Part shown: positions 2,518 through 35,182 of the stretch, piece after piece
Layout: the number at the start of each line of letters is the position of its first letter
How positions within the stretch are numbered: the first letter of the stretch is position 1
Source of the DNA: an uncultured Gemmatimonadota bacterium
GTDB taxonomy: Bacteria; Gemmatimonadota; Gemmatimonadetes; Gemmatimonadales; Gemmatimonadaceae
Length of the DNA: 52,249 bases
Assembly: GCA_946478895.1 (NCBI GenBank)
Contig: CAMLDY010000008.1
Span: forward strand, 1-52,249
Direction of reading: 5' to 3'
Program-made: the position numbers and the translations under genes
The notes under the pieces: model-generated
Seen by the model: only the letters and a program-made list of their open reading frames with translations
What the model was told of the DNA's origin: nothing
The model's database searches: none

Positions 2518-3350
2518 TCAGTTTTCCCTTTGCTCATGTTTGCACGACGCACGGTCTGGAGCAGCCACGCGTGCATTGCCGGATTGCCGGCGACGAACGA
2601 GCCCGATGCCAGCTGCGCTGGATTGCCGTCGAGATCCGATACGATTCCGCCGGCTTCCTGAACCATAAGGATCCCGGCGGCGACATCCCAGGGAGCGAGC
2701 ACCAACTCCCAGAACGCGTCGAAGCGGCCGCAGGCAACATTGGAGAGGTCGAGCGCAGCCGAACCGGCGCGCCGGATGCCCGCCGTTCCGCGCATTACCA
2801 GCGCGAACTGGTCGAGGTAGCGCGGCAGGCGGTCGATATTCTTGAACGGGAACCCCGTCCCGATCAGGGCTTTGTCGGGCTCCCGCAGACCGGATACGTG
2901 GATGCGCTGCCCGTCCATGAACGCGCCGCCGCCGTGCGTAGCGCTGAACTCCTCGTGCCGCGCGACATTGATGACCACGCCCGCGCAAAGGACGCCGTCG
3001 CGGGCGATGGCGATCGAAACGGAGTATTCGGGATACCCGTGCAGAAAATTGGTGGTGCCGTCGAGCGGGTCGGCGATTACGACGAGTCCCGTCGAGGAGA
3101 TTTGTTCCGGACTCAGCTCTTCACCCAGCAGCCTTGCGTCCGGAAGACGATCGGTGATCACCGCTCCGATTGCGCGCTCGGAAGCCTTGTCGACCTCGCT
3201 GACGAAGTCCGACCTGCCCTTGGTCTCCCACACGAGCTTTGCCCGCTGGGCAGTCGCGTCGCGAATCACCGCCGCGCCACGGCGAGCCGCTTCGCGCGCG
3301 ACATCCAGCAGCGCTGCGTTGTCAACGTCAGTTGTTGAATTTGCTTGCAA
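2514..3350 (-). CDS. Inositol monophosphatase family protein
   Basis: About 278 residues of a Mg2+-dependent, lithium-sensitive-type phosphatase. The family motifs occur in order: LGEELS (metal-ligand glutamates), IADPLDGTTNFLHG (metal and phosphate site) and APWDVAAGILMVQEAGG near the C-terminus. Typical length is 260-280. The frame stays open for hundreds of codons further upstream, but that stretch is only the antisense of trpS. The likeliest start is TTG at 3350, giving MQANSTTDVDNAALL, just 30 bp from the divergent trpS ATG. Family members act on myo-inositol phosphate, PAPs or histidinol phosphate, and the substrate cannot be told from sequence alone. It is first in a leftward set with ftcD (ATGA overlap). 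Confidence 0.88.
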   Translation of the reverse strand: MQANSTTDVDNAALLDVAREAARRGAAVIRDATAQRAKLVWETKGRSDFVSEVDKASERAIGAVITDRLPDARLLGEELSPEQISSTGLVVIADPLDGTTNFLHGYPEYSVSIAIARDGVLCAGVVINVARHEEFSATHGGGAFMDGQRIHVSGLREPDKALIGTGFPFKNIDRLPRYLDQFALVMRGTAGIRRAGSAALDLSNVACGRFDAFWELVLAPWDVAAGILMVQEAGGIVSDLDGNPAQLASGSFVAGNPAMHAWLLQTVRRANMSKGKTE

Positions 3351-3380
3351 CTCGTCTCGCTCGCTCTTTAATTTCGCGCA

Positions 3381-4400
3381 ATGTCCCGCATCTTCAGCGG
3401 AATTCAGCCCTCCGGCGCCCTGCACATCGGAAATTACCTCGGAGCCGTCAAGAACTGGGTTGATCTGCAGCACAAATACGAGTCGTTCTTCTGCGTCGTC
3501 GATTACCACGCCATCACGCGCCCGTACGCTCCGGCCGATCTGCGCGCGCAAACGGCGGACATGGCGCTGTCGCTGCTCGCGGCTGGTCTCGATCCGGCGA
3601 AGTGCGCGCTGTTCGTGCAGTCGAGGGTGCCGGAACATACCGAGCTGGCCTGGATATTCAACACGATCACCCCACTCGGCGAGCTCGAGCGCCAGACCCA
3701 GTTCAAGGAGAAGGCGAGCCGCGAGGAGAGCGTGCCCGCCGGGCTCCTGAATTATCCGGTTCTCCAGGCGGCCGACATCCTTCTCTACCACGCCGATCTC
3801 GTGCCGGTTGGAGAGGACCAGGTCCAGCATCTGGAGCTGTCGCGCGAGGTGGCGCGCAAGTGGAACGCACGCTTCGATCCGTCGGTGGCGGAGAAGCTGG
3901 GCGTCGGCGACGAAGCACCGCCGCAGGGGTATTTTCGCGAGCCCGAGCCGCTTCTGACGCCGACGCGTCGGGTGATGGGTCTCGACGGCAAGGCGAAGAT
4001 GTCGAAGTCCCTCGGCAATACCATCGATCTGCTCGAGGAGCCGGCCTCGATCTGGGCGAAGCTCAAGCCCGCGGTGACGGACCCGAAGCGCGTGCGTCGA
4101 ACGGATCCGGGCACGCCGGAGGTCTGCAACATCTACCACCTCCACAAGGCGTTCAGTCCTCCCGAAACCGTCGAGCACGTTGCGGTGCAGTGCCGCACCG
4201 CAGGCTGGGGCTGCATCGACTGCAAGAAGGTCCTGCACCAGTCGATGGAGCGCGAGCTGGCTCCGATTCGGGCACGGGCAAAGGAGATAGCTGCGAATCC
4301 TGCCAAGATGAAGAAAGATCTGGCCGATGGCGCCGAGCGCGCCCGGTCCGTCGCGGCGAAAACGATGGGCGAAGTGAAGCAGATGATGGGGCTCACCTAG
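3381..4400 (+). CDS. trpS: Tryptophanyl-tRNA synthetase, probably iron-sulfur type
   Basis: 339-residue class I aminoacyl-tRNA synthetase that charges tRNA-Trp. It shows SGALHIGN (HIGH-type motif, residues 11-18), FQ/TQFKEKA-type core sequence and AKMSKS (KMSKS loop, residues 205-210). Between the catalytic core and the C-terminal helical domain there are four cysteines, C249, C271, C278 and C281, in the pattern C-x21-C-x6-C-x2-C. This closely resembles the [4Fe-4S]-binding pattern described for the Thermotoga maritima enzyme (C-x22-C-x6-C-x2-C). The gene is first of a long rightward run that continues through the gas-vesicle genes. The promoter must lie within or next to the 30-bp divergent gap or inside the neighbouring gene. 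Confidence 0.95.
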   Translation: MSRIFSGIQPSGALHIGNYLGAVKNWVDLQHKYESFFCVVDYHAITRPYAPADLRAQTADMALSLLAAGLDPAKCALFVQSRVPEHTELAWIFNTITPLGELERQTQFKEKASREESVPAGLLNYPVLQAADILLYHADLVPVGEDQVQHLELSREVARKWNARFDPSVAEKLGVGDEAPPQGYFREPEPLLTPTRRVMGLDGKAKMSKSLGNTIDLLEEPASIWAKLKPAVTDPKRVRRTDPGTPEVCNIYHLHKAFSPPETVEHVAVQCRTAGWGCIDCKKVLHQSMERELAPIRARAKEIAANPAKMKKDLADGAERARSVAAKTMGEVKQMMGLT

Positions 4401-4411
4401 CAGCTTGAGGC

Positions 4412-5515
4412 ATGGCCGACACCGGAATCGCCCAGCGCGCGAAGGAGCTACTCGACCGGTTGTCGCAGACGACTCGATTCGCAGGGAGCGGCGAAGAAGT
4501 GGCGGCGCGCGCGCTGTGCCGCCGCGAGCTCGAAGACGCAGGGTTCGTCTGCCGCGACGTTCCATTCGAGTTTTCCGATTGGCCGGCGCGTTGGGGTCCG
4601 CCCGTGTCGGCCGCGGTGCAGCTAGCAGTCCTGCTCATCGTGATCACGGTTGCAAAGCGCGGTGAGCCGGGCGTCGCTCTCGCCGTGCTAATTTTTGCGG
4701 TGGTTCTGCTTGGATGGATCGGCGGGCAGGTGAAGCGTCGCGGGGTGTTGTCTTTCCCCTATGGGCGCGCCCGATCGTCGAACCTGGTGGCAGTGCGCGG
4801 CGAGCCACGGGTATGGCTGGTGGCGCATCTCGACAGCAAATCGCAGACGATTCCGATGCTGGTGCGCATCGCCAGCTCGGTGGCGCTCCAGCTGGTATCC
4901 ATTGCAGTCGCCCTAGTGCTTCTCGCAGCGACGAGCGCAGTGGTGGTCCCGCGAGGATGGTGGCTGGCGCTTCAGCTCATCGCGGCGGTCGGCGCGGCGC
5001 CGGCGGTGGTGTGCGTCGTGGGAAATCGCTCGCCCGGAGCGGTCGATAACGCCAGCGGAGTTGTCGCTGTGGTTCTCGCCGCAACCGGAGCAAACTCGCG
5101 ACGCGAGCTGGGCGTGCTGCTGACGAGCGCCGAAGAGCTCGGCCTCGCCGGCGCCCGCGCATACGCGGCGACGGCCGCGCCGAACATCAGGGTTCTCAAC
5201 TGCGATACTGTCGACGACTCGGGCGGTTGGCGCTGCATGTACAGCGGAGCGAAGCCGCGTCAAATGACGGCCGCTGCTCGAGCGGTTGCTACCAGGGCCG
5301 CCCTGACCGTGAGGATCGGCAAATTGATCCCCGGCATTCTGGCGGACAACGTTGCGTTCGCCGATGTGCGCATCGAAGCGGTTACCCTCAGTCGCGGAAA
5401 CTTTTCAACTCTCGCGCGCATACATACATGGCGCGATAATTCCATTGCGCTTTCCGGTCAGGGCGCGGCTGAGGCTGCTCTCTTCCTATCTGCCCTGGCC
5501 AAGGAGCTCGGCTGA
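4412..5515 (+). CDS. Membrane-associated M28-type aminopeptidase
   Basis: 367 residues with an M28 (Zn-dependent aminopeptidase) core interrupted by membrane helices. The motifs present are VWLVAHLDSKSQ (HxD metal ligand), SPGAVDNASGV (bridging aspartate), LLTSAEELGLAGA (catalytic Glu plus metal Glu) and LNCDTVDD (further aspartate). Hydrophobic segments lie at about residues 66-105 and 150-205, so the peptidase core is probably anchored in the inner membrane with the helices inserted between parts of the fold. A C-terminal HTWRD histidine fits the last ligand. It lies 11 bp after trpS and its TGA overlaps the next ATG (TGATG). The substrate is unknown. Confidence 0.78.
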   Translation: MADTGIAQRAKELLDRLSQTTRFAGSGEEVAARALCRRELEDAGFVCRDVPFEFSDWPARWGPPVSAAVQLAVLLIVITVAKRGEPGVALAVLIFAVVLLGWIGGQVKRRGVLSFPYGRARSSNLVAVRGEPRVWLVAHLDSKSQTIPMLVRIASSVALQLVSIAVALVLLAATSAVVVPRGWWLALQLIAAVGAAPAVVCVVGNRSPGAVDNASGVVAVVLAATGANSRRELGVLLTSAEELGLAGARAYAATAAPNIRVLNCDTVDDSGGWRCMYSGAKPRQMTAAARAVATRAALTVRIGKLIPGILADNVAFADVRIEAVTLSRGNFSTLARIHTWRDNSIALSGQGAAEAALFLSALAKELG

Positions 5516-6006
5516 TGGCGCTTCTGCTGCTGGCTTGCGTTATACTTTTGTCGCTCGTCCTCATTGTCCTCGGCCTGCCAGGCCTCTGGATCATGGTGGC
5601 GTCGGCCGTCACATACAATCTGGTGGTGCCCGGCGATCCGATCGGCTGGGTATCGCTGATCGTCGTCGGCGTTCTCGCCCTGATCGCGGAGCTGTTGGAG
5701 TTTTCCCTGACAGGCAAGTACGCGCGGAAGTACGGCGGTTCCCGCCGCGCTGGCTGGGGTGCAATCTTTGGCGGAATTGTGGGAGCGATTGTCGGAGTGC
5801 CCGTTCCCATCATTGGTTCGGTAATCGGGGCCTTTATCGGTTCTTTCCTCGGCGCACTCGTGGCCGAGTATACCGGTGGATCGTCAGCAGGTGATGCCAC
5901 TCGCGTCGCCAAAGGAGCCCTCATTGGCCGGGCCGTATCGACCGGTCTGAAGATCGGGATCGGCTTTATGATCGGCGTCTGGATTTTCATCGCCGCGATG
6001 AGATAA
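5515..6006 (+). CDS. DUF456-family small membrane protein
   Basis: 163 residues, almost entirely hydrophobic with glycine-rich helices, matching the DUF456 family of small inner-membrane proteins. The N-terminal hairpin (residues 1-60) includes VLGLPGLWIMV. A short basic loop follows (GKYARKYGGSRRAGWGAI). A long glycine-zipper-like stretch (about residues 80-125) is rich in GxxxG, and a last helix follows (about 140-162). No enzymatic motif is seen and the family has no settled function. The ATG overlaps the stop of the M28 peptidase gene. The first gas-vesicle gene begins only 21 bp downstream, so the protein may be co-expressed with it. Confidence 0.8.
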   Translation: MALLLLACVILLSLVLIVLGLPGLWIMVASAVTYNLVVPGDPIGWVSLIVVGVLALIAELLEFSLTGKYARKYGGSRRAGWGAIFGGIVGAIVGVPVPIIGSVIGAFIGSFLGALVAEYTGGSSAGDATRVAKGALIGRAVSTGLKIGIGFMIGVWIFIAAMR

Positions 6007-6027: not shown

Positions 6028-6825
6028 ATGAGCCCAGCCGAAAGCGCCGCAGCAGCGGCCGAGGCGAATCCAGTAGAAGGCAAGTACGTCTACTGTATTA
6101 TCCGCAACGATCGCTCGCGGGAGTTCGGCGAGATCGGCATTGGCAGTGGGGCACGCGTCTACACCGTGAGCCACAACGATCTCGCGGCCGTGGTGAGTGA
6201 CACTCCCATCGTCATCTATGACCCTACGCGTGAGAACGTCCTCGCGCACGAGTTCGTGAACGAGACCGTGATGCGCGAGTTCACGCTGATCCCGATGTCC
6301 TTCGGAACCGTGTTTCGCTCCGAGAAAGACGTGCTTGCCCTGCTGAAATCCACGTACCAGGCCTTTACCGACGTGCTCGACAAGATGCAGGACAAGATCG
6401 AGTTCGGGCTCAAGATCCTCTGGGATCGTGACAAGGTCGTGGCGGCGATCGAGCGCGACAACGACGAGATCCGGCGGCTCAAGGACGAGATCACCCGCAA
6501 CGCCGCGTCATCTACGTATTTTGCGCGGATGCAGCTCGGTCGGCTGGTGGAGGCGGCGATGGAGGAGGCGAGCAATCGCTACGTCACCGACATCCACGAG
6601 CAGCTGAAGGACGTCTCTGCCGCGAGCCGCAGCAACAAAGTCATCGGCGACCGCATGATCCTGAACGCCGCGTTTCTCGTGGACCGGAAGGATGAGAAGG
6701 CCTTCGACGAGAAGGTCAAGGCGATCAGCCTGCAGTACGAGGATCTTTTAACATTCAAATACACCGGCCCGTGGCCGCCGTACAACTTCGTCAATATCAA
6801 GCTGAAGCTGGAAAAAGCGACCTGA
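6028..6825 (+). CDS. Gas vesicle protein GvpF/GvpL family (copy 1)
   Basis: 265 residues. It opens with KYVYCIIRNDRSREFGE, the usual N-terminal strand of GvpF/GvpL, and contains LIPMSFGTVF in the middle. A charged helical segment rich in ERDNDEIRRLKDEI follows, and it closes with the family signature YTGPWPPYNFV. GvpF/L proteins are minor gas-vesicle components that bind GvpA and help nucleate the shell. It lies 21 bp after the DUF456 gene and 15 bp before gvpG. Whether it should be called F or L cannot be decided without a tree. Upstream, a four-codon ATG...TGA mini-frame ends exactly at this ATG, so the ribosome may be handed over locally. Confidence 0.92.
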   Translation: MSPAESAAAAAEANPVEGKYVYCIIRNDRSREFGEIGIGSGARVYTVSHNDLAAVVSDTPIVIYDPTRENVLAHEFVNETVMREFTLIPMSFGTVFRSEKDVLALLKSTYQAFTDVLDKMQDKIEFGLKILWDRDKVVAAIERDNDEIRRLKDEITRNAASSTYFARMQLGRLVEAAMEEASNRYVTDIHEQLKDVSAASRSNKVIGDRMILNAAFLVDRKDEKAFDEKVKAISLQYEDLLTFKYTGPWPPYNFVNIKLKLEKAT

Positions 6826-6840
6826 TCCGGGTCTGAATCC

Positions 6841-7143
6841 ATGGGCCTGCTCACCAACATTCTCCTCTCGCCGTTTCTCGGTCCCATCTGGGGCACGAAG
6901 TGGACGCTCGACAAGGTCGATCGCGTCGTACGCGAGGAGCTCACCGACGACACCAGCATCAAGGAAGACCTCATGAAGCTTCAGCTGGAGCTCGAGTCGG
7001 GCGAGATCGACGACGCCGAGTACGTGCGTCGCGAGGCCGACATCATGAAGCAGCTGCGCGCTGTCCGGGAATGGCGTGAGCGCTTTGGAATGTCGACGAG
7101 CGGTGGTCCGGTGCGCGTCGCTCAGAGCGACGAGACGGAATAA
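6841..7143 (+). CDS. gvpG: Gas vesicle protein GvpG
   Basis: 100 residues, short and mostly helical, matching GvpG. The N-terminus MGLLTNILLSPFLGPIWG is followed by a helical acidic region (LQLELESGEIDDAEYVRREADIMKQLR) typical of the family. GvpG is a small accessory protein needed for gas-vesicle assembly in several organisms and interacts with the GvpF/GvpL group. The gene sits between two gvpF/L copies, an arrangement common in gas-vesicle loci. The ribosome-binding site is weak, and coupling to the upstream gene is likely because the gap is 15 bp. Confidence 0.88.
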   Translation: MGLLTNILLSPFLGPIWGTKWTLDKVDRVVREELTDDTSIKEDLMKLQLELESGEIDDAEYVRREADIMKQLRAVREWRERFGMSTSGGPVRVAQSDETE

Positions 7144-7157
7144 ACCGCCAGCGGCCG

Positions 7158-7958
7158 ATGATCGAGCGCCTCTGCTACGTGTACGGCGTGGTTCACTCGT
7201 CGCTCGAGACTGCGACCGCCCCGAGCGGCATCGACGGCGGCAGCGTCAGCCTGATTCGGAGCGGTGATGTCTCGGCGCTGGCGACTTCAGTCGGCGCTGA
7301 CGACTACTCGCCAGAGCGAGTGGAATCTCTGACCGCGGATGTCGACTGGGTGAGTCAGCGCGCGATGGCGCACGACCGGGTTCTGACCTGGGCGTCTGAC
7401 AGCGGCCCGGTGATTCCATTTCCAATGTGGACGCTCTTCAGGGATGCCAAGGCTGTGTCGGCGATGCTCGCCAGGCGCATGGGCGAGCTCCAGCGCACCT
7501 TTGAGCGGATCGGCGACGGCAAGGAGTTCATCGTCCGCGTTTACGTGCAGCCGGGAGTGTTGAAGGAGCACGTCGGCGATCACACCACCGAGCTCGCGAC
7601 GCTGGAAGCAGAGGCGGCCCGCGCGACCCCGGGACAGAAATACCTGCTGCAACGGAAGATCGAGAACCTGCGGCGCGACGCCGGCCGCGACATTGCGTCG
7701 AGGGCGGCAACCGAGATTCATGATGGGTTGCGCGCCGAGGCAATGGAGGCAGTGCGGGAGCAGCCCGTCAACTCCGGAGCGCCCCGTGAGCAGGGACGTG
7801 CCATCCTGAACTGTTCTTTCCTCGTGCAGCCCGAGCGCGTCGTGGCGTTCCAACGAGCTCTGACGGGAATGGTCAACAAGTACGAGCCGTCGGGCTTCAG
7901 GTTCGATTTCACCGGTCCCTGGCCGCCATACCATTTTGTCGGCGAGCGCTCTTCGTGA
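7158..7958 (+). CDS. Gas vesicle protein GvpF/GvpL family (copy 2)
   Basis: 266 residues with the same architecture as copy 1 but well diverged. It begins with RLCYVYGVVHSS, has VIPFPMWTLFRDAKA in place of the PMSFGTVF segment, and ends with FTGPWPPYHFV. A central helical region (about residues 140-190) contains EAEAARATPGQKYLLQRKIE, a common feature of this family (G-[KQ]-x-YLL). The two paralogues flanking gvpG most likely represent the F and L roles of the cluster. The stop overlaps the GTG of the next gene (GTGA), implying translational coupling. Confidence 0.9.
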   Translation: MIERLCYVYGVVHSSLETATAPSGIDGGSVSLIRSGDVSALATSVGADDYSPERVESLTADVDWVSQRAMAHDRVLTWASDSGPVIPFPMWTLFRDAKAVSAMLARRMGELQRTFERIGDGKEFIVRVYVQPGVLKEHVGDHTTELATLEAEAARATPGQKYLLQRKIENLRRDAGRDIASRAATEIHDGLRAEAMEAVREQPVNSGAPREQGRAILNCSFLVQPERVVAFQRALTGMVNKYEPSGFRFDFTGPWPPYHFVGERSS

Positions 7959-8557
7959 GCCTCGACGATCTACTCGGCGATTCCCGCGTCGACCTCTCGG
8001 AGGTGCTGAGCCACGTCCTCGACAAGGGCGTTGTGCTCAAGGGCGAAGTGATGCTGGCGGTCGCGGACATCGACCTGATCAAGCTCGATCTCGGGCTTTT
8101 GCTGACGGCAGTCGAGTCGGCTTTGCGACGACCGCGAGTGACCGGTGCGAGGACTCTCGGGCTCGCCGCGCCACGTCCCGAAACGCCTCCGCCGAGCGCA
8201 TCGGGCTCGACAATGGAGAGTCAGGTCGTGGAATCGCTGGAGGCGCCGCGTGAGGTGCCGGTCACGCCTCTGGAAACGGTTGCTGAAGCCCTGCCGCCGC
8301 GTCTTAATACAGACCCGGAAAACGTCGAGAACGGCCTCGCGAAGCTCGTCTTGACGTTGATTGAGGTATTGCGTAAGGTCCTAGAGCACCAGGCAGTTCG
8401 GCGAATGGAGGGGGGACATCTGAGCGACGCGGAGATCGAGAAGCTCGGTGTCGCGCTGCTTCGTCTCAACGACCGGATGCAGGAAATGAAGGGGATCTTC
8501 GGCCTCACCGATGACGATCTCCAGATCGACCTGGGCCCCCTGGGAAGGCTTAAATAA
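7955..8557 (+). CDS. GvpA-family (GvpJ/S-like) domain fused to GvpK
   Basis: 200 residues joining two gas-vesicle families that are normally separate genes. Residues about 8-55 (VDLSEVLSHVLDKGVVLKGEVMLAV...) match the GvpA/J/M/S fold: the LDKG turn, a charged strand, a DIDLIKLDLGLLL strand and a second helix. A Pro/Glu-rich linker covers about residues 60-110. Residues about 113-200 match GvpK: LNTDPENVENGLAKLVLTL, LLRLNDRMQEMKGIFGLTDDDL and a final LGPLGRL. The join is in one uninterrupted frame, without the stop or frameshift expected if two genes had been misread. The GTG start overlaps the upstream stop. A GvpJ/S-like role at the vesicle tip plus the GvpK role is inferred. Confidence 0.85.
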   Translation: MSLDDLLGDSRVDLSEVLSHVLDKGVVLKGEVMLAVADIDLIKLDLGLLLTAVESALRRPRVTGARTLGLAAPRPETPPPSASGSTMESQVVESLEAPREVPVTPLETVAEALPPRLNTDPENVENGLAKLVLTLIEVLRKVLEHQAVRRMEGGHLSDAEIEKLGVALLRLNDRMQEMKGIFGLTDDDLQIDLGPLGRLK

Positions 8558-8588
8558 CCCGGCGTACGAGCCGAACGGAGACGACTGC

Positions 8589-8885
8589 TTGGCAGACTTA
8601 GTATCGCCGTCGCGCACCTATGGTCTGGTCGACATTCTCGATCGCGTGCTCGATAAGGGCCTCGTGGTCGTGGGTGACATAAAGATCAATCTCGCCAACG
8701 TAGAGCTCCTCACGATTCAGGTACGACTTCTCATCTGCTCGATCGACAAGGCCGAGCAGATCGGAATGAACTGGTGGCGCACGGACCCGCGCCTGAGCAC
8801 TCACGCGCCGCCGGCATCACTGCAATCTCCGCCAACACACGCCGCCTCGGCTGCAAGACAACAGGAGTCACGACATGGCAGTTGA
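8589..8885 (+). CDS. GvpA-family minor gas vesicle protein (GvpJ/S/M type)
   Basis: About 98 residues. I place the start at TTG 8589, because GGAG lies 8 bp upstream and the protein then begins [24 protein letters not shown]. The earlier in-frame ATG at 8511 lies inside the previous gene and adds residues unlike the family. The GvpA-like core runs [36 protein letters not shown] and then [14 protein letters not shown]. The tryptophan-containing end and a Pro/Ala/Gln-rich tail resemble the minor J, S and M proteins, which are thought to cap or nucleate the shell. It overlaps the gvpA start by 11 bp. Confidence 0.85.
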
Positions 8886-9177
8886 ACGTTCCCCGAGCGG
8901 TAGCTCGCTTATCGATGTTCTCGATCGCGTTCTCGACAAGGGTATCGTCATCGACGCCTGGGTTCGCGTCTCCCTTGTCGGGATCGATCTCGTGACGGTC
9001 GAGGCGCGCATCGTCGTCGCATCCATCGACACATATCTGAAGTACTCGGAGGCAGTCGGTCTCACAGCGCCGGGATCGCGTCCGCGCGAGATGGTCGCCG
9101 GTGGAGCGGACGAGCTCGATCGGATGCGGACGGAAAATGCAGATCTGAAGCGGCGACTTGAGCGACTCGAAGCGTGA
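8875..9177 (+). CDS. gvpA: Major gas vesicle structural protein GvpA, with C-terminal coiled-coil extension
   Basis: 100 residues; the first 68 or so are a near-canonical GvpA. The core motifs are [39 protein letters not shown] and [14 protein letters not shown]. GvpA forms the ribbed, gas-permeable, water-excluding vesicle shell. Canonical GvpA ends about 70 residues in; here about 30 more follow, including [20 protein letters not shown], with leucines and charges spaced as in a coiled coil. The start is well supported by AGGAG 7 bp upstream of the ATG, the best ribosome-binding site in the cluster, fitting the most abundant component. The last 20 bases overlap the downstream kinase gene. 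Confidence 0.95.
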
Positions 9178-11464
9178 GAGTTCAGCGGTAGCTATTCGGC
9201 CGCAGCTCAGTGGAGAGCGCCTGGCTGAGCTGCTCTCCGCTATCTCTGAAGCACCGGACTTTGTAACTGCAGCGACGTTCCTTCTCGCGCAGTTCGCCGA
9301 CATCGTCGGCGCCCGCCGCGCGTTGGCGATAACCCTCGACACACCGCCGAACCGCTTCGTCACGACTGCCAGCGTCGGCTTCGACGGCGAAGTGCCGCCC
9401 GCAATCTCCATTCGGAGCGACGACCTCTCCAACCCGCTGTCCGTAGCGGCGCTCTCACTGCACCCTGTCAGCTGCGAACAGGCGTCTCCGTCTCCCGGAT
9501 TGCCCTTCAGTGAATGGAGTGCCGTTCCGTTCCCGCAGCCGTTGTTCAGAGGCGCGCCGCCACTGCTCAAGGAGCACGAGCTCGACCTCGTGCAGCTCGA
9601 TGGCTGCGAAGTAAGGCGCCGCGCGGTTCTCGACCGCCGGGCGCACATTGGCCACTCGCCGGGAGGCGTCGCGCTCCTCGAGGCGTCGGTCGACGATGCC
9701 ATGCTGGGCGCGCTGATGCACGCTGCGTCGCTGGCCGGACCCGTGCTTGCGCGCCTGGCGGCGATCGAGGAATTCCGACTTTCCTCCGGGCGCCTGAATA
9801 AGCAGCGCGAGATGCTGACCACGATCATGAACTCCCTGCCGGACCCGATCGTGATCATCAATGCCCAGCGCGACATCGTCGCCCAGAACAAGCGCGCCGA
9901 GCACCTGCTGCTGACGAGCGACAAGGATTCAGAGGGCCGGCGCCGCGCGGTCGAGATCAACAATCTGCTTTTCACATCGCACCTGTCCAAAGCGGCGATG
10001 GGAGCCAAGGAGACGGCCGGCTCGCGCGAGCTGAACCTGGTCGATCCGGACGAGGGTACCGACCTGCTGTTCGAGGTGCTCACCCACCAGCTGGGTGGTG
10101 AGGACGGCGATCAGCGCGATTCTTCCACCATCTCGGTGCTCCGCGATGTCACCGACCTGCGCCGTGCGGCCAACGAGCTCGAGCGGCAGGTGCAGCGCGT
10201 GCGACTGGCTGAAATCGATGCCAAGCGCGAGCGCGACCGCCTCAACCTCATCCTGGAAAACGTCGCCGATCCGATTCTCGTCACCGACGATCGCTCGAAC
10301 ATCATCCTCATGAACAAGGAGGCCGAGCAGCTGTTCGAGGCGGACGACAGCGAGAGCTGGGAGCGAGCGGCGACGGTGCAGGCGAACGACACCAAGTTCA
10401 CCACGTTCATCTCCGACTTCACCATCAGCCCGTCGCTGGCGCGGCGCGAGCAGATGAAGCTGCACGTGCCCGATACCGGGCTCGAGCTGCCGATCGAAGT
10501 CGTGTCGGGAAAGATCCTCAATCGTCGCGGAGAGCCGCTCGCGATCGTGTCCGTGCTGCACGATCTCACCGAGCAGGCGGAGAACGAACGGCTCTACGAG
10601 GAGCTGAAGACTTTCTCGAGTCAGCTGGAAGAGCGCATTCAGGCCGCGACAGCGGATCTCGCCGAGCAGAACACTCGTCTGCAGTGGCAGTCGCGGGAGC
10701 TGGAGAAGGCGAACCGGCTGAAATCGGAATTCCTGGCCAGCATGTCCCACGAGCTGCGCACCCCGATCAACGCCTTGATCGGTTACGCATCGCTGATGCT
10801 CGACCGGATCTACGGCGATCTCACGCCGCGTCAGGAAGAAGGACTCACGCGCATTCAGGGTGCGGCGCAGCACCTTCTCGCGCTGATCAACGACATTCTC
10901 GATCTCGCGAAGATCGAGGCAGGGCGGATGCCGCTCCACCTCGACGACGTCAAGCTGGGCGACATCATCACCGAGATCTCCCAGCAGATCGAGCCGCTGG
11001 TGAAAAAGAAGAAGCTCACCTACCAGGTGGAGCTGCCTTCGACCGATCTCATGCTGCACACGGACCGCACGAAGGTGAAGCAGATCCTGCTCAACCTGCT
11101 GTCGAACGCCGTGAAGTTCACCCACCACGGCGGCGTGTGGCTCAATGTGTCGAGGGACGAAGAGGACCTGCGCTTCGACGTGCGCGATACCGGCATCGGA
11201 ATCCGGGAGACCGATCTCGAGTCGATCTGGGAGGATTTCCGCCAGGTCGATCAGTCGCGAACCCGCGAGTTTGGCGGCACTGGCCTGGGCCTCAGCATCA
11301 CGCGCAAGCTCGTAGATGCCCTCGGTGGGCACGTATTCGCGCAGAGCACTTTCGGTAAGGGTTCTACTTTTACGGTGATTCTCCCCATCCGGAGCGTGGT
11401 GCGCCCCGACGATCCACCGCGAGTGATCGACGTGATTCCACCGCCACCGCCCGTGCAGCGTTGA
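9158..11464 (+). CDS. PAS-domain hybrid-sensor-type histidine kinase (soluble), coupled to gvpA
   Basis: 768 residues from a TTG start inside the 3' end of gvpA. Residues about 15-190 look GAF-like. Two PAS domains follow, beginning near residues 219 ([16 protein letters not shown]) and 362 ([17 protein letters not shown]). A coiled-coil linker leads to a HisKA domain with phospho-acceptor H531 in SMSHELRTP. The HATPase_c domain has N650 in LLSNAVKFT, then RDTGIGI and GGTGLGLSI. There is no membrane helix, so it should sense a cytosolic signal (PAS and GAF domains bind small molecules, haem or flavin), and no receiver domain. No response regulator is adjacent. It is last before the terminator at 11496, so its expression is tied to the gas-vesicle genes. 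Confidence 0.9.
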
Positions 11465-11495
11465 CACCGACCCTGCTGGAAGTAGATTGAACCAA

Positions 11496-11526
11496 CGCCC
11501 CGAAGCTCTCGGGGCGTTTGCTTTTT
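11496..11526 (+). terminator. Rho-independent terminator after the trpS-gvp-kinase run
   Basis: Perfect 8-bp stem CGCCCCGA / TCGGGGCG (11496-11503 with 11509-11516) around a 5-base loop, followed by TTTGCTTTTT. It lies 32 bases after the kinase stop and 30 bases before the purA start, so it separates the two transcription units. Confidence 0.85.
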
Positions 11527-11555: not shown

Positions 11556-12869
<1,314 letters not shown>

Positions 12870-22461: not shown

Positions 22462-23490
22462 ATGAGCGCTGTGCTGAAGCCAATCCAGGACGTGCGTCCG
22501 ACCCAGGAGCCGCACCTCTGGAGCTGCTACTCCGATTCGAGCGGTAGAATCCGCAAGAATCTCACGCCCGATGAGATCGCGCGCGCCGCGGCCTCCGGCG
22601 TGGGAACTCTGTGGGTCGACGTGGACACCCGCGATGCAGCCAACGTCGCGCTCCTCAAGGACGTCTTCCACTTCCATCCGCTGGCGATCGAGGAAGCGCT
22701 CAACCCGCAGGCTCGCGTCAAGCTCGAGGAATTCGATCGCTACGTTCTCCTGATCGTGCGCACCGTCGCGTTCTGCGAGACGACCGAAGACCCGTACGAT
22801 CTCGACACCGTCAACATCAGCTTCTTCCTTGGCAGCAACTACCTGGTCACGGTACATGGCGCCGACACGAACCCTGTCGCGACGACGGCGGATCTGCTGG
22901 AGCGGAAACCCGAGCTCGCCACCCACGGGCCTGCCAGGCTCATGCACGCCATCGTCGATCAGGCCGTCGATGCCTACTTCCCGATCATCGACAAGCTCGA
23001 CGAGTTCATGGACAGCCTCGAGGAGCGGATCTTCGCCCAGTTCGACCAGAACGCCCTGCGCGAGGTGTTCGCGGTGAAGCGGCTGGTGTTGAACCTTCGC
23101 CGCCACCTGGCCCCCGAGCGCGACGCCCTGAGCGTTCTTACCAACCGCCCGAGCACCCTCCTCAGCCCCGACACCCAGATTTACTTCCGGGACATCTACG
23201 ACCACGTCCTCCGGATCTACGATTCCCTGGAGACCTTCCGCGACCTGTTGAGCAGTACCCTGGACAGCTATCTAACTCAGGTCTCCAATCGTCTAGGTAT
23301 GGCGACGAAGGCGCTCAGCGTCGTCGCCACCGTAACGCTCCCGTTCGTCGTGGTGAGCGGGATGTGGGGAATGAACTTCGAGCATATTCCGCTTCACAGT
23401 CACCCGCACGGCTTCATGATCCTCGTACTGGCGCAGCTCGCGCTCGGCCTTTCAATCCTCGCCGCTCTGAAATGGCGCAAGCTACTGTGA
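22462..23490 (+). CDS. corA: CorA-family magnesium/divalent cation transporter
   Basis: 342 residues. The large N-terminal cytosolic funnel domain (to about residue 280) includes FHFHPLAIEEALNPQARVKL and a long charged stalk helix. Two C-terminal membrane helices follow, separated by the signature GMWGMNFEHIP (GMN selectivity loop). CorA is a pentameric inner-membrane channel for Mg2+ and sometimes Co2+ or Ni2+. The last 19 bases overlap the start of the third GvpF/L-family gene, so the two are very likely co-translated; a functional tie is unproven. Confidence 0.93.
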   Translation: MSAVLKPIQDVRPTQEPHLWSCYSDSSGRIRKNLTPDEIARAAASGVGTLWVDVDTRDAANVALLKDVFHFHPLAIEEALNPQARVKLEEFDRYVLLIVRTVAFCETTEDPYDLDTVNISFFLGSNYLVTVHGADTNPVATTADLLERKPELATHGPARLMHAIVDQAVDAYFPIIDKLDEFMDSLEERIFAQFDQNALREVFAVKRLVLNLRRHLAPERDALSVLTNRPSTLLSPDTQIYFRDIYDHVLRIYDSLETFRDLLSSTLDSYLTQVSNRLGMATKALSVVATVTLPFVVVSGMWGMNFEHIPLHSHPHGFMILVLAQLALGLSILAALKWRKLL

Positions 23491-24116
23491 CGGCGCTGCG
23501 CCTCTACGGAGTCGCGGCGGTGGAGTCGGGGCAGGCGACCTCGCTCGCCGAGGGCACGTCCCTGGTGCATTTTCGCGCGCTTGCGGCGATCGTCGAGCCG
23601 ACCACGTACTCCATGACGAGCCTCGACGACGAGGCCACCGCGAAGTATCTGCGCGTACTGGAGGACGCCTACGGCCACTCGGCCGTTCTGCCGGCGCCCC
23701 CCGGGACGGTATTCCAGTCCCAGGCGACCCTCGCTCGCTGGCTCGAGCTGCACTACTTCACCCTCACTGAGGCCCTGTCGGTGATCGAGGGGCACGCCGC
23801 GGCGCGGGTGAGTATCACCACCCACACGCGCCACGAGAACGGTGACAGTGACGCCCAAAAGAGCTTCGCAGCGCTCGCCGCAGAGAGCCTCCGACTGCTG
23901 CGCAGCCAGGCTGCGGCTACCGTGACGCTTCCCAAGGCCGACGGCGATGATGAGGACGGCGTGGTGGCGCGCGCATCGTTTCTGATCGACAGGGAGCGCT
24001 GGCAGACCTTCAAGGACACCGTATCGAAGGAAGCGCAGCGGCAGTCGGCGCTCGAGTTCAAGGTGACGGGGCCGTGGCCGCCGTACGATTTCGTCCGCAT
24101 GCAGTTCGGAGGCTGA
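23472..24116 (+). CDS. Third GvpF/GvpL-family protein, outside the gas-vesicle cluster
   Basis: 214 residues starting at ATG 23472 inside the end of corA. It begins with VTALRLYGVAAVESG and has a shortened N-terminal domain, with PAPPGTVFQSQATLARWLE matching the family's PMSFGTVF region. After a linker it ends with KVTGPWPPYDFVRMQF, the clearest GvpF/L signature. It is shorter than the 265-residue copies in the main cluster, mainly in the middle helical region. The stop is 2 bases before the Ser/Thr kinase start. Location 14 kb from gvpA suggests either a dispersed gas-vesicle accessory or a diverged member used for something else. Confidence 0.85.
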   Translation: MAQATVTALRLYGVAAVESGQATSLAEGTSLVHFRALAAIVEPTTYSMTSLDDEATAKYLRVLEDAYGHSAVLPAPPGTVFQSQATLARWLELHYFTLTEALSVIEGHAAARVSITTHTRHENGDSDAQKSFAALAAESLRLLRSQAAATVTLPKADGDDEDGVVARASFLIDRERWQTFKDTVSKEAQRQSALEFKVTGPWPPYDFVRMQFGG

Positions 24117-32193: not shown

Positions 32194-32556
32194 CTATGCC
32201 AGGTGGCGCTCGATCTGGCGTAAGAGCTCGCTGATAGGGACCGGCTTCACCAGCACATCGGCGCAGCCCGCCTCGAGGCAGCTACGGCGTGATTTGGCGT
32301 CGCTGTGTCCGGTCATGGCCAGGGTCGCCCGCGGCAGACAGGCGCGCTGTCGCAGCGCTTCCATGATCTCGAGTCCATCGCCATCGGGCAGCGAAAGATC
32401 GAGCAGCATCACGTCGACCGGCTTGTCGCTGCCGCGCTCGACCGCGTCGGCGACGGTCGCCGCTACGTCGACCTCATAGCCGGCTTCGGTGAAGAGCACC
32501 GTAAAAGCGTCGGTCACCAGCGGACTGTCCTCGACGATCAGGATGCGCGTCTTCAT
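32194..32556 (-). CDS. Single-domain (CheY-like) response regulator
   Basis: 120 residues consisting of a receiver domain only. The acidic pair is in LIVEDSP (residues 9-10). The phospho-accepting aspartate is D53 in MLLDLSLPDGDG. The conserved threonine sits in AMTGH and the lysine in LVKPVP. There is no output domain, so it must act by protein contact or as a phosphate shuttle. Its ATG overlaps the kinase stop (TAATG), marking the kinase as the cognate partner. Confidence 0.93.
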   Translation of the reverse strand: MKTRILIVEDSPLVTDAFTVLFTEAGYEVDVAATVADAVERGSDKPVDVMLLDLSLPDGDGLEIMEALRQRACLPRATLAMTGHSDAKSRRSCLEAGCADVLVKPVPISELLRQIERHLA

Positions 32557-33371
32557 TACCCGCGTGGCATCACCAGAGGGAGGGTGAAGAAGAACCGGCT
32601 TCCCTTGCCGAGCTCGCTTTCCACCCAGATGCTGCCCGAGTGGAGCTCCACCAGCTTCCGCGCGATCGCAAGGCCGAGGCCCGTCCCGTGGTGCGGGCGC
32701 GACGGCGACGCATCGACTTGCGCGAACTCCCTGAAGACCAGCTCGAAGTGATCGCGCGCAATCCCGCGGCCGGTGTCGCCGACTTCCACGACCAGCTCCT
32801 CTTCGTTCTTACCGCGACGCGAAAAAGAAACCCAGATTCTGCCGCCATCGCCGGTGAACTTGATGGCGTTGCCGATCAGATTGGCGAGCACGTGCTTGAT
32901 CTTGTCGCGATCGGCGAAGAGGGGCGGGAGGTTGTCGCCGTTCAGTCGCTCGATCGTCAAATGCTTTCTCGCCGCCAGGGGTTGATTGAGCATTCGCACC
33001 TGATCGACGAGCTCGGTGATGTCGAACTCGCTGCGAGCGAGACTGACCTGGTCGCTGGCGGTCCGCACGTAGGTCAGAATCTCGTCGATCATGTCGAGCA
33101 GCTGCTGTCCCCCGCTCACGATTCCGCTGACGCTGTCGCGCTGCTTCGGCGTCAGCTCGCCGAGCATTCCCTCACGGAGGATCTCGGCGTGCGTGATGAT
33201 GGCCGCGAGCGGCGTGCGCAGATCGTGCGAGATGTTCGACAGAAACTGGGTTTTGAGCGAGTCCCGCGCCTTCAGCTCGTCGATGGTGCGCTGCGCTTCC
33301 TTGGCCAGCGACTCCAGGGCCTTTACCCGCTGCTGCAGCGCCGCCGGATCCAGCTGTTCGGTCATCGTCAT
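32556..33371 (-). CDS. Soluble sensor-less histidine kinase
   Basis: 271 residues. A short N-terminal coiled coil (residues 8-38, [19 protein letters not shown]) leads straight into HisKA with H49 in [12 protein letters not shown] HATPase_c domain follows with [25 protein letters not shown] and [13 protein letters not shown]. There is no sensory domain and no membrane helix, so the input probably comes through a partner or through the coiled coil. It is translationally coupled both to the upstream ABC exporter gene (ATGA) and to the downstream receiver protein. Confidence 0.93.
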
Positions 33372-35182
33372 ATTGTAGTTGCCGCCTCATCCGCTGCCAA
33401 CGCGTCGGCCTCGCCTTCGTCGGACTCCACTGCGTCGAGGAGCTGCTGCCGCCGCAGCAGCGACCAGTACCTGCCCCGCAACGCCATCAGATCGTCGTGA
33501 CGACCCTGCTCCACGACCGTGCCTTTCTCCAGCACGACGATCCACTGCGCATCGCGAATCGCGCTGATCCGGTGGGACGCGATCAGCGCTGTCCGTCCAG
33601 CCAGTGCTCCCCGCAGCGCGCGCAGGATCTCGGCTTCCGTATGGGTGTCAACCGCCGAAAGCGCGTCATCGAGCACCACGATGCTCGGCTTTCTCGCCAA
33701 CGCGCGGGCCAGTGAGGCGCGTTGTTTCTGGCCGCCGGAAAGATTGATCCCGCGCTCGCCGAGGACGGTGTCGTACCGGCCCGGAAACTCCTCGATGGTG
33801 CGATCGAGCTGCGCCACCGCCGCCGCCCATTCGCCGGTCTGAGTCATTTCACTCGTGCCGTACGATAGGTTGGAGCCGATGGTGTCGCTGAACAGCAATG
33901 ATTCCTGCGGCACGAAGCCGATCTCGCGCCGCAGCTCCGCCGGCGCGACGTTCCTCGTCGGGACACCATCGATCAGAATCTCGCCTTCCTGTGGATCGTA
34001 CATCCTCGGAATCAGGTCGATCAGCGCGCTCTTGCCGCTCCCCGTCGCGCCGACGATGCCGAAAGTCGCCCCCGCCGGCACGGTAAAGCTGACGTTGCGC
34101 AGCACCCACCGCGGCTCGCTGGCCACATCGGACGGATAGTGGAATCCGACATTCCGGAACTCGATCGTTCGACCTGAATCGGTTGGCGGCAGGTGCTGTT
34201 GGGGCGGCTTCTGGGTGATTGTCGGCTTGACCTCGAGAATTTCGGCGAGTCGCCCCATCGACGCGTCGCCACGCTGGAAAAGATTGATGACCCAGCCCAG
34301 CGCGATCATCGGCCACGTGAGCATCGTCAGGTACATCCCGAACGCGACGAAGGATCCAATCGAGATCGTGCCCCTGATGGTGAAGACTCCGCCCACGCCG
34401 AGCACTACTACCGCCCCCAGCCCGCCGAAGAATGCGAACAACGGATTCAGGGTGCCCCACAGCCTGACCAGCGACATGTTGAGCGCCAGATACTGATCGT
34501 TGATGGCCGCGAACCGGGCGATCTCAGCCGCCTCCTGACGGTACGCGCGAACGATCCGCGCTCCGGTCAGATTCTCCTGCGCGCGCGTCGTCAGCGTCGA
34601 GAAATGCTCCTGCACCGCCTCGAACCGGTCGTGAATCGCCTTGCCCATCCTGATGGTTAGGAGCGGCAGGAAGATGAGCGGCAGCAGCGCGAGCAGGGTC
34701 AGCTTCACATCGATGCGCAGCATGAAGTACAGCGCGAAAACCCCGCCCGCGATGGTGTTGGCGAGATACATGACCGCCGGCCCGACCGCCATCCGGACCG
34801 CGCTCAGGTCGTTGGTGAGCCGCGCCATGATGTCGCCGGTCCGGGTCTGTGCAAAGTACGCGGCGTCAAGCGTCTCCAGATGTGTGAAGAGGTCGTTGCG
34901 CAGGTCGTACTCGATCCAGCGGCTGACGCCGTTCATCAGCTCACGCATCCCGTACCGGAATGCCCCGCCGACGATCGCCGCGAGCACGATTAGACCACTC
35001 AGCTCCCAGATTGTCCTCATCGGCGCCGCGTTGCCAATCGCGTCGATTGCGCGTCGAAGCAGCCATGGGATGACGCTGGTAATCGCCGATGACGCCAGGA
35101 CGATGACGAGCCCGACGCTGAATGAGATCCAGTACGGGCGATAGTATGGCGCGGCGATCCGCAGATTCTTCATATTTGGCAT
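33368..35182 (-). CDS. ABC exporter, fused permease and ATPase half-transporter
   Basis: 604 residues of the MsbA/LmrA-type half-transporter, acting as a dimer in the inner membrane. Six helices lie in residues about 15-300 (for example [19 protein letters not shown] and [19 protein letters not shown]). The ATPase domain has [10 protein letters not shown] (Walker A), a Q-loop, [15 protein letters not shown] (signature), [12 protein letters not shown] (Walker B) and the [11 protein letters not shown] switch histidine. Substrates of this class range from lipids to drugs and peptides and cannot be inferred here. It heads the leftward operon with the kinase, regulator and phosphodiesterase; a divergent promoter region with the next gene lies in 35183-35249. 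Confidence 0.93.

Follow-up and report, generated by a model that had tools for sequence, protein, structure and literature searches.

A probable core-only gas vesicle cassette with a GvpS-type/GvpK fusion in a conserved trpS-kinase-purA neighbourhood of Gemmatimonadota

The DNA analysed here is a stretch of 52,249 nucleotides from an uncultured Gemmatimonadota bacterium (contig CAMLDY010000008.1; from here: the window). Six gvp genes at positions 6028-9177 encode seven Gvp functions (A, F, G, J, K, L and an S-type domain). We conclude that they probably constitute a core-only gas vesicle assembly cassette in a conserved Gemmatimonadota neighbourhood of the order trpS-M28-DUF456-(gvp)-kinase-purA; within the conserved trpS-kinase-purA neighbourhood the gvp block is an optional cassette. 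According to the excerpts in which the papers cited here were available, the minimal gene sets of Bacillus megaterium and Haloferax share A, F, G, J, K, L and an S/M protein (PMC11223475), so that the set kept in the window is exactly what the two published minimal sets have in common. In a search of open-licence papers by titles and abstract openings, with subscription papers mostly outside, no description of gas vesicles in Gemmatimonadota or of a natural GvpS/GvpJ-GvpK fusion was found.

An initial annotation, made from the sequence alone, had described two gvpF/L genes, gvpG, a GvpA-domain/GvpK fusion, a further GvpA-family gene, gvpA and a histidine kinase gene immediately behind trpS, an M28 peptidase gene and a DUF456 gene. 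Pfam matches confirm this gene content and the coordinates confirm the position (Table 1). The genes had been said to be separated by at most about 30 bases or to overlap, and the measured gaps are 14-31 nt (DUF456-gvpF 21, gvpF-gvpG 15, gvpG-gvpL 14, fusion-gvpJ 31) and the overlaps 4-20 nt (gvpL-fusion 4, gvpJ-gvpA 11, gvpA-kinase 20). The GvpA protein matches solved shell proteins with E values of 3.3e-27 (8gbs) and 1.6e-22 (7r1c). With a solved-type GvpA shell together with GvpF, G, J, K, L and an S/M-type protein, the locus is a gas vesicle cluster by gene content. It is very unlikely that these proteins build a shell that is gas-free or non-buoyant and serves some other purpose: a need for flotation is not obvious in metagenome-assembled genomes (MAGs) from soil or peat, and several source records of the related loci name soil, palsa, fen or peat samples in their titles, but residues 1-69 of GvpA match the solved gas vesicle shell with the fold segments retained, and all core assembly factors are kept.

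In the fusion protein the Gas_vesicle domain spans residues 14-51 and GvpK residues 116-199, with a linker at about 61-105. Across six close loci, the ratio of nonsynonymous to synonymous polymorphism (pN/pS) came to 0.22 in the S part and 0.15 in the K part, compared with 0.51 in the linker; both halves are under purifying selection. A protein search with the fusion returned 3267 homologues at E values up to 0.001, and the best 120 of these all possess both GvpK and Gas_vesicle domains, under the database names GvpJ, GvpK or hypothetical protein. The former gvpK start ATG persists in 8 of 17 fused loci, all belonging to the subclade of the window (where locus L004 lacks it), hence a separate GvpK could still be made in those eight. 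Locus L009 has no ATG, GTG or TTG from 60 to 16 residues before the LVLT motif and can therefore make the fusion only. Gene 8589-8885 was assigned as gvpJ by score (220 as J). The fused domain was named S-type by position and exclusion, because it stands at the S position and gene 8589-8885 is a clear J; the Streptomyces and Octadecabacter genes used for comparison had themselves been labelled J or S by position, their records reading only 'gas vesicle protein'. Locus L102, from another cluster type, has a divergent S-K single frame with no F3 gene between and with the gvpK start codon retained, possibly an independent fusion.

A scan of species genomes with the fusion yielded 21 loci (L001-L021), the closest relatives being Gemmatimonadota; the titles of 20 name Gemmatimonadetes, Gemmatimonadaceae, Gemmatimonadales or Gemmatimonas, and that of L004 reads 'unidentified bacterium'. 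GvpK scored above its cut-off in 33 of the 394 genomes of a class sample. The GvpK regions of 20 further genomes of this sample (L100-L119), the window and the 21 loci make up 42 loci, which were typed with models built from the first loci. Seventeen of them (the window, L001-L012, L113, L114, L115 and L118) have S and K in one frame, no ArsA and no F3. As far as the contigs extend, the gene order is kept in all 17, a recurrence that shows the order not to be a product of chance and answers the synteny comparison proposed in the initial annotation. Unfused loci, where complete, read F-G-ArsA-L-S-F3-K-J-A-kinase; they thus have a gene for a two-domain ArsA ATPase between gvpG and gvpL and, as F3, a third GvpL/GvpF gene. 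On a tree of 36 kinase rows (quick method, no bootstrap, midpoint rooting), the 16 fused rows having a kinase are set apart from all others by one branch (Shimodaira-Hasegawa-like approximate likelihood ratio test, 97). The fusion has a single origin on this tree, and the loss of F3 coincides with that same change. Absence of ArsA takes six changes, with L103 and L112 being cut contigs and L019, L100 and L117 further losses. In Octadecabacter the S, F and K genes are separate, and from the gene arrangements we infer that the unfused order is ancestral.

The window cluster had been described as a compact set lacking gvpN and gvpC, reading with trpS-M28-DUF456 and the kinase as one run, and this description holds. 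Neither GvpN nor GvpO is found among the genes of the cluster by Pfam scan, and there is no ArsA-sized gene between gvpG and gvpL. The genome search for gvpN suggested at the outset was run in relatives (the genomes of L004 and L006 lie outside all whole-genome searches): none of 25 genomes exceeded the curated cut-off of 266.8 bits, which two true GvpN proteins passed at 365.4 and 438.8 bits. Weak AAA matches to the GvpN model, of up to 41.8 bits, occurred in 25/25 relatives and also in 12 of 14 control genomes. GvpO was found in none of 21 relatives, with all three positive records detected. The low Pfam cut-off for ArsA was passed by 17/17 genomes and 14/14 controls, while strong matches (>100 bits) were confined to six of the seven unfused genomes and absent from all ten fused ones, where the best match reached 28.7 bits; for G064, G196, G177 and G337, ArsA was read at the cluster loci only. 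Exactly three Gas_vesicle matches were present in 16 of 17 relatives' genomes, and six in G016. In the ten fused genomes all three lie within this cluster, so no second, complete conventional gvp locus was seen there; such a locus would have spoken against the proposal of a minimal system.

The pNL29 cluster of B. megaterium (B R N F G L S K J T U) shares the order F-G-L-S-K-J with the window; its gvpS and gvpK overlap by 47 bp (PMC11223475), whereas S and K are one protein here. The window differs from pNL29 further in having no GvpN, R, T or U, in having gvpA last and in the kinase that follows. The p-vac cluster of Haloferax and Halobacterium has A, F, G, J, K, L and an S/M protein in common with the window (excerpts of PMC11223475 and of the Halobacterium gene table). 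In contrast to p-vac, the window cluster has no GvpO, N, C, D, E, H or I, and J and K of p-vac are adjacent but separate. Streptomyces coelicolor, according to the excerpt of PMC4982088, resembles the window in having no gvpN. On a plasmid of Streptomyces sp. NBC_00984 the last A-family gene overlaps gvpK; unlike the window, this plasmid has GvpO, no fusion and no adjacent kinase. ArsA-bearing gvp clusters have been described (PMC2963123), and their two-domain ArsA type is also found in the unfused Gemmatimonadota, whereas the clade of the window has lost ArsA.

In the mechanism that we propose, GvpA would form the shell, with GvpJ and the GvpS-type domain as minor shell components alongside GvpK, and the chaperone-like GvpF, GvpG and GvpL would deliver GvpA. 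S, K and J have been proposed as a seeding group and GvpF and GvpG as chaperones of the shell protein (PMC11445434); the S-K fusion would join two members of that group at a fixed 1:1 ratio. GvpS fusions and most GvpK fusions are tolerated (PMC11445434). GvpN has been called necessary for elongation (PMC11223475) and tied to the growth of bicones into cylinders (PMC4982088, PMC11445434, PMC11223475), and gvpN mutants form bicones (PMC4982088). Because no elongation ATPase is encoded, small biconical vesicles are predicted: without GvpN or the ArsA ATPase, vesicles would halt at small bicones, and by analogy with these systems this is the shape that we expect. The published minimal sets differ in a single gene, which is GvpN in one and GvpO in the other. 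With a natural cluster limited to the shared core, it becomes directly testable whether that core is sufficient and which shape results, and the S-K fusion lends support of an independent, evolutionary kind to a physical connection within the proposed seeding group.

Several points weigh against a functional core-only cassette. Vesicle formation is a prediction from the gene content. The bare shared set is not known to yield vesicles, the B. megaterium set needing GvpN and the Haloferax set GvpO; a GvpN-less B. megaterium cluster gave no vesicles in an electron microscopy screen (excerpt of PMC11223475), and for S. coelicolor, without gvpN, the excerpt of PMC4982088 knows of no vesicles. GvpC was found in none of 21 relatives, a search in which the controls were silent too and which had no positive control. 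Scores leave the fused A-domain between S and J (104 against the J-labelled and 102 against the S-labelled Streptomyces gene), and the structure model of the fusion has a predicted local distance difference test score (pLDDT) of 49.7. The relatives are MAGs of unstated completeness, and several of them have gvp genes missing or partial, which is also compatible with decay.

Decay would mean that the losses (of the ATPase, of F3, then of more) are steps towards complete loss and that no vesicles form. Complete loss has indeed occurred in G133, G118 and G380, and partial remains are seen in G141 (gvpF, a gvpA scrap and a diverged kinase), G046 (F-A-kinase-purA) and G352 (F-J scrap-A-kinase-purA). 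We nevertheless regard decay as an unlikely explanation of the fused clusters, since the pN/pS medians are 0.10-0.29 over all six gvp genes (six close loci) and the fused set persists in 17 loci without loss of another gene. In G133, G118 and G380 (loci L172, L173 and L174), the kinase lies between DUF456 and purA and only a 5' scrap of gvpF is left; trpS and M28 stand upstream in L172 and L173, and L174 is a 4.1 kb contig beginning near DUF456. No Gas_vesicle and no GvpK match was found in these three genomes. By eye the three deletion junctions differ, two joining early gvpF to the 3' end of gvpA and the remaining one joining gvpF to the kinase start, where a GTG start is left. On a larger kinase tree the three gvp-less genomes account for three changes, two of them forced by starred branches. 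In the class sample they make up 3 of the 13 genomes of the fused clade, the gvp-bearing ten being G001, G003, G007, G008, G009, G010, G064, G177, G196 and G337.

The kinase is the next gene after gvpA in 36 of the 42 loci; of the six exceptions, L005 is at the end of its contig, L015 has a kinase truncated by the contig end, and L102, L106, L109 and L119 belong to another cluster type or are cut. The initial annotation had called it a PAS histidine kinase. The PAS kinase part of this name stands, and the name is incomplete in that a GAF domain is predicted for the first ~200 residues: residues 1-227 are modelled as a GAF fold (pLDDT 85.7), and the best PDB match of this region in Foldseek is 3ci6 (E 2.2e-6, query template modelling score 0.51). 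With a GAF-like sensor, PAS, HisKA with the catalytic histidine and HATPase, the protein is a GAF-PAS histidine kinase. H531, N646 and the DTGIG region are invariant in 18 aligned rows, and the first 194 residues are variable. No response regulator is encoded in the cluster or among 15 further window open reading frames scanned, a subset of those present.

The initial annotation had suggested that the kinase is there to control buoyancy by an intracellular signal. In favour of a dedicated gvp regulator stand its position in the 42 loci, its place beside gvp in 29 of the 33 GvpK genomes of the class sample (in L015 partly on the contig) and a sensor domain reaching at least 100 bits in 24 of 394 genomes (7 candidates scored per genome), 21 of which have GvpK. 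Such a role is doubtful all the same, as G133, G118 and G380 keep an intact, selected kinase in place without gvp genes, G160 has a diverged kinase at its trpS/M28-purA site without gvp besides one next to a full cluster elsewhere, and the scanned part of the window yielded no response regulator. The pN/pS values of the gvp-less kinases (0.094-0.195, 10 chosen pairs) compare with 0.094-0.226 for 10 chosen gvp-bearing pairs; since these distances include the time before the loss, relaxed selection after a very recent loss stays compatible with them. Against the strong co-occurrence, retention in the three gvp-less genomes led us to reject a kinase that is solely a vesicle regulator; its presence is not confined to genomes with gvp genes. 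Because three relatives lost the gvp set and kept the kinase, it probably does more than control buoyancy: we propose a putative cytosolic GAF-PAS-PAS sensor, co-located with gvp, that would have at least one output not needing vesicles. The gvp-less relatives provide natural controls for separating kinase from vesicle roles in Gemmatimonadota. In Serratia, the regulatory genes gvrA, gvrB and gvrC likewise lie beside gvp genes, a likeness drawn from their description without sequence comparison, but they are required for gvpA1 expression (PMC4982088), whereas the window-type kinase survives gvp loss.

An extended reading, which we hold to be quite improbable, takes the locus as a natural ATPase-free vesicle system with a single S-K seed, in which kinase and GvpF would be a separable, older signalling pair; the kinase would read the assembly state (e.g. 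free GvpF) where vesicles are present and serve another regulon where they are not. GvpF-kinase pairs without shell genes in G347, G230, G391 and G260 (one clade, with a gvp cluster elsewhere in each genome) and the F-A-kinase remnants of two other genomes (pairs and remnants together: loci L165-L168, L169 and L170) fit this signalling pair. The second kinases of those four genomes have pN/pS values of 0.27-0.47 and are less constrained than the kinases of their own clusters (0.29-0.34); the gvpF genes paired with them have 0.18-0.31.

As to transcription of the core-only cassette, the simplest reading is a single transcript from trpS to the kinase; co-transcription is plausible, and the whole run would then be driven from the trpS promoter. 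In each of the nine fused loci where DUF456 and gvpF were both read, the gap between them measures 15-40 nt, which leaves little room for a promoter outside DUF456. A standard promoter scan gave one site against 1.2 expected and has too little power to speak against an internal promoter. A variant scan found 4 sites on one strand and 3 on the other, with 2.7 in shuffles, again without power; its 12/12 sites in the kinase-purA gap are circular, one -10 variant having been taken from that gap. The terminator that had been noted after the kinase is present as a hairpin, and recurs, by eye, in 11 of 11 fused relatives with the kinase-purA gap read (L001-L004, L006-L012). As the hairpin scan is near chance level (7 hairpins, 5.5 expected), this recurrence is the real support for the terminator. 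A promoter-like stretch before trpS is kept, by eye, in the window, L001, L002 and L007-L009, and not in L010 and L011. At 3330-3381 of the window, and in several relatives, 8 nt separate the trpS ATG from the end of a conserved TTTAAT, a hint that trpS is leaderless or has a very short leader. At 11461-11525, in the gap before purA, a promoter-like TTGACA...TAGATT directly precedes the terminator hairpin; the stretch from TAGATT to the hairpin recurs in 11 fused relatives, and the purA leader may begin with the hairpin.

Table 1. Features of the trpS-gvp-kinase-purA region of the window.
Feature	Position	Strand	Basis and remarks
trpS, tryptophan--tRNA ligase; likely first gene of the run	3381..4400	+	TIGR00233, 307.9 bits, above cut-off
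M28-family peptidase-like protein	4412..5515	+	PF04389; position kept in fused loci where contigs reach
DUF456 protein	5515..6006	+	PF04306; L010-L012 without match
gvpF (GvpL/GvpF family)	6028..6825	+	PF06386, 259.8 bits; top match Octadecabacter GvpF-position gene
gvpG	6841..7143	+	PF05120, 66 bits
gvpL, second GvpL/GvpF family gene	7158..7958	+	PF06386, 188.2 bits; gvpL position
gvpS-type domain/GvpK fusion	7955..8557	+	Gas_vesicle 37.6 bits and GvpK 110.7 bits in one open reading frame
gvpJ, GvpA family, TTG start at 8589	8589..8885	+	PF00741, 56.7 bits; top match Streptomyces plasmid J-position gene
gvpA, main shell protein	8875..9177	+	PF00741, 61.1 bits; PRK09371, 119.7 bits (cut-off 100); PDB 8gbs, 7r1c
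GAF-PAS-PAS histidine kinase, 768 residues, TTG start at 9158 inside gvpA	9158..11464	+	Pfam PAS_4, PAS, HisKA, HATPase_c
Terminator hairpin behind the kinase, 10 pairs	11494..11518	+	Hairpin scan and recurrence in fused loci
purA, next transcription unit	11556..12869	+	Named from open reading frame translation and homology between loci, no family scan

Synonymous divergence is low at positions 8270-9177 (0.36 in the GvpK half, 0.385 each in gvpJ and gvpA), compared with 0.53-0.64 in trpS, gvpF, gvpG, gvpL, the kinase gene and purA. Codon bias or overlapping signals may account for this.

A further GvpL/GvpF-family gene, overlooked by the initial annotation, lies at 23472-24116 (+ strand, 214 amino acids) between genes for a CorA-like transporter and a zinc-ribbon protein kinase. 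It was considered as a displaced F3 and rejected: short homologues are found in unfused relatives that have retained F3 as well, by score it is closer to gvpF than to F3 (maximum 150 and 112, respectively), and GvpL/GvpF matches are present in at least 62 genomes without GvpK. Because it occurs in genomes without GvpK, it was excluded from the cassette count. GvpL/GvpF matches were found in at least 94 of the 394 class genomes, compared with 33 having GvpK, and at least 58 of the 62 or more genomes with such matches and without GvpK have no strong full-length match. Short copies lie near HDAC, kinase, MLE or PriA genes (11 regions read). By its sequence and surroundings, the gene at 23472-24116 appears to encode a relative of GvpF/L whose function lies outside gas vesicles. 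A second HisKA/HATPase kinase gene, at 32556-35182 on the minus strand, overlaps the end of an ABC transporter gene.

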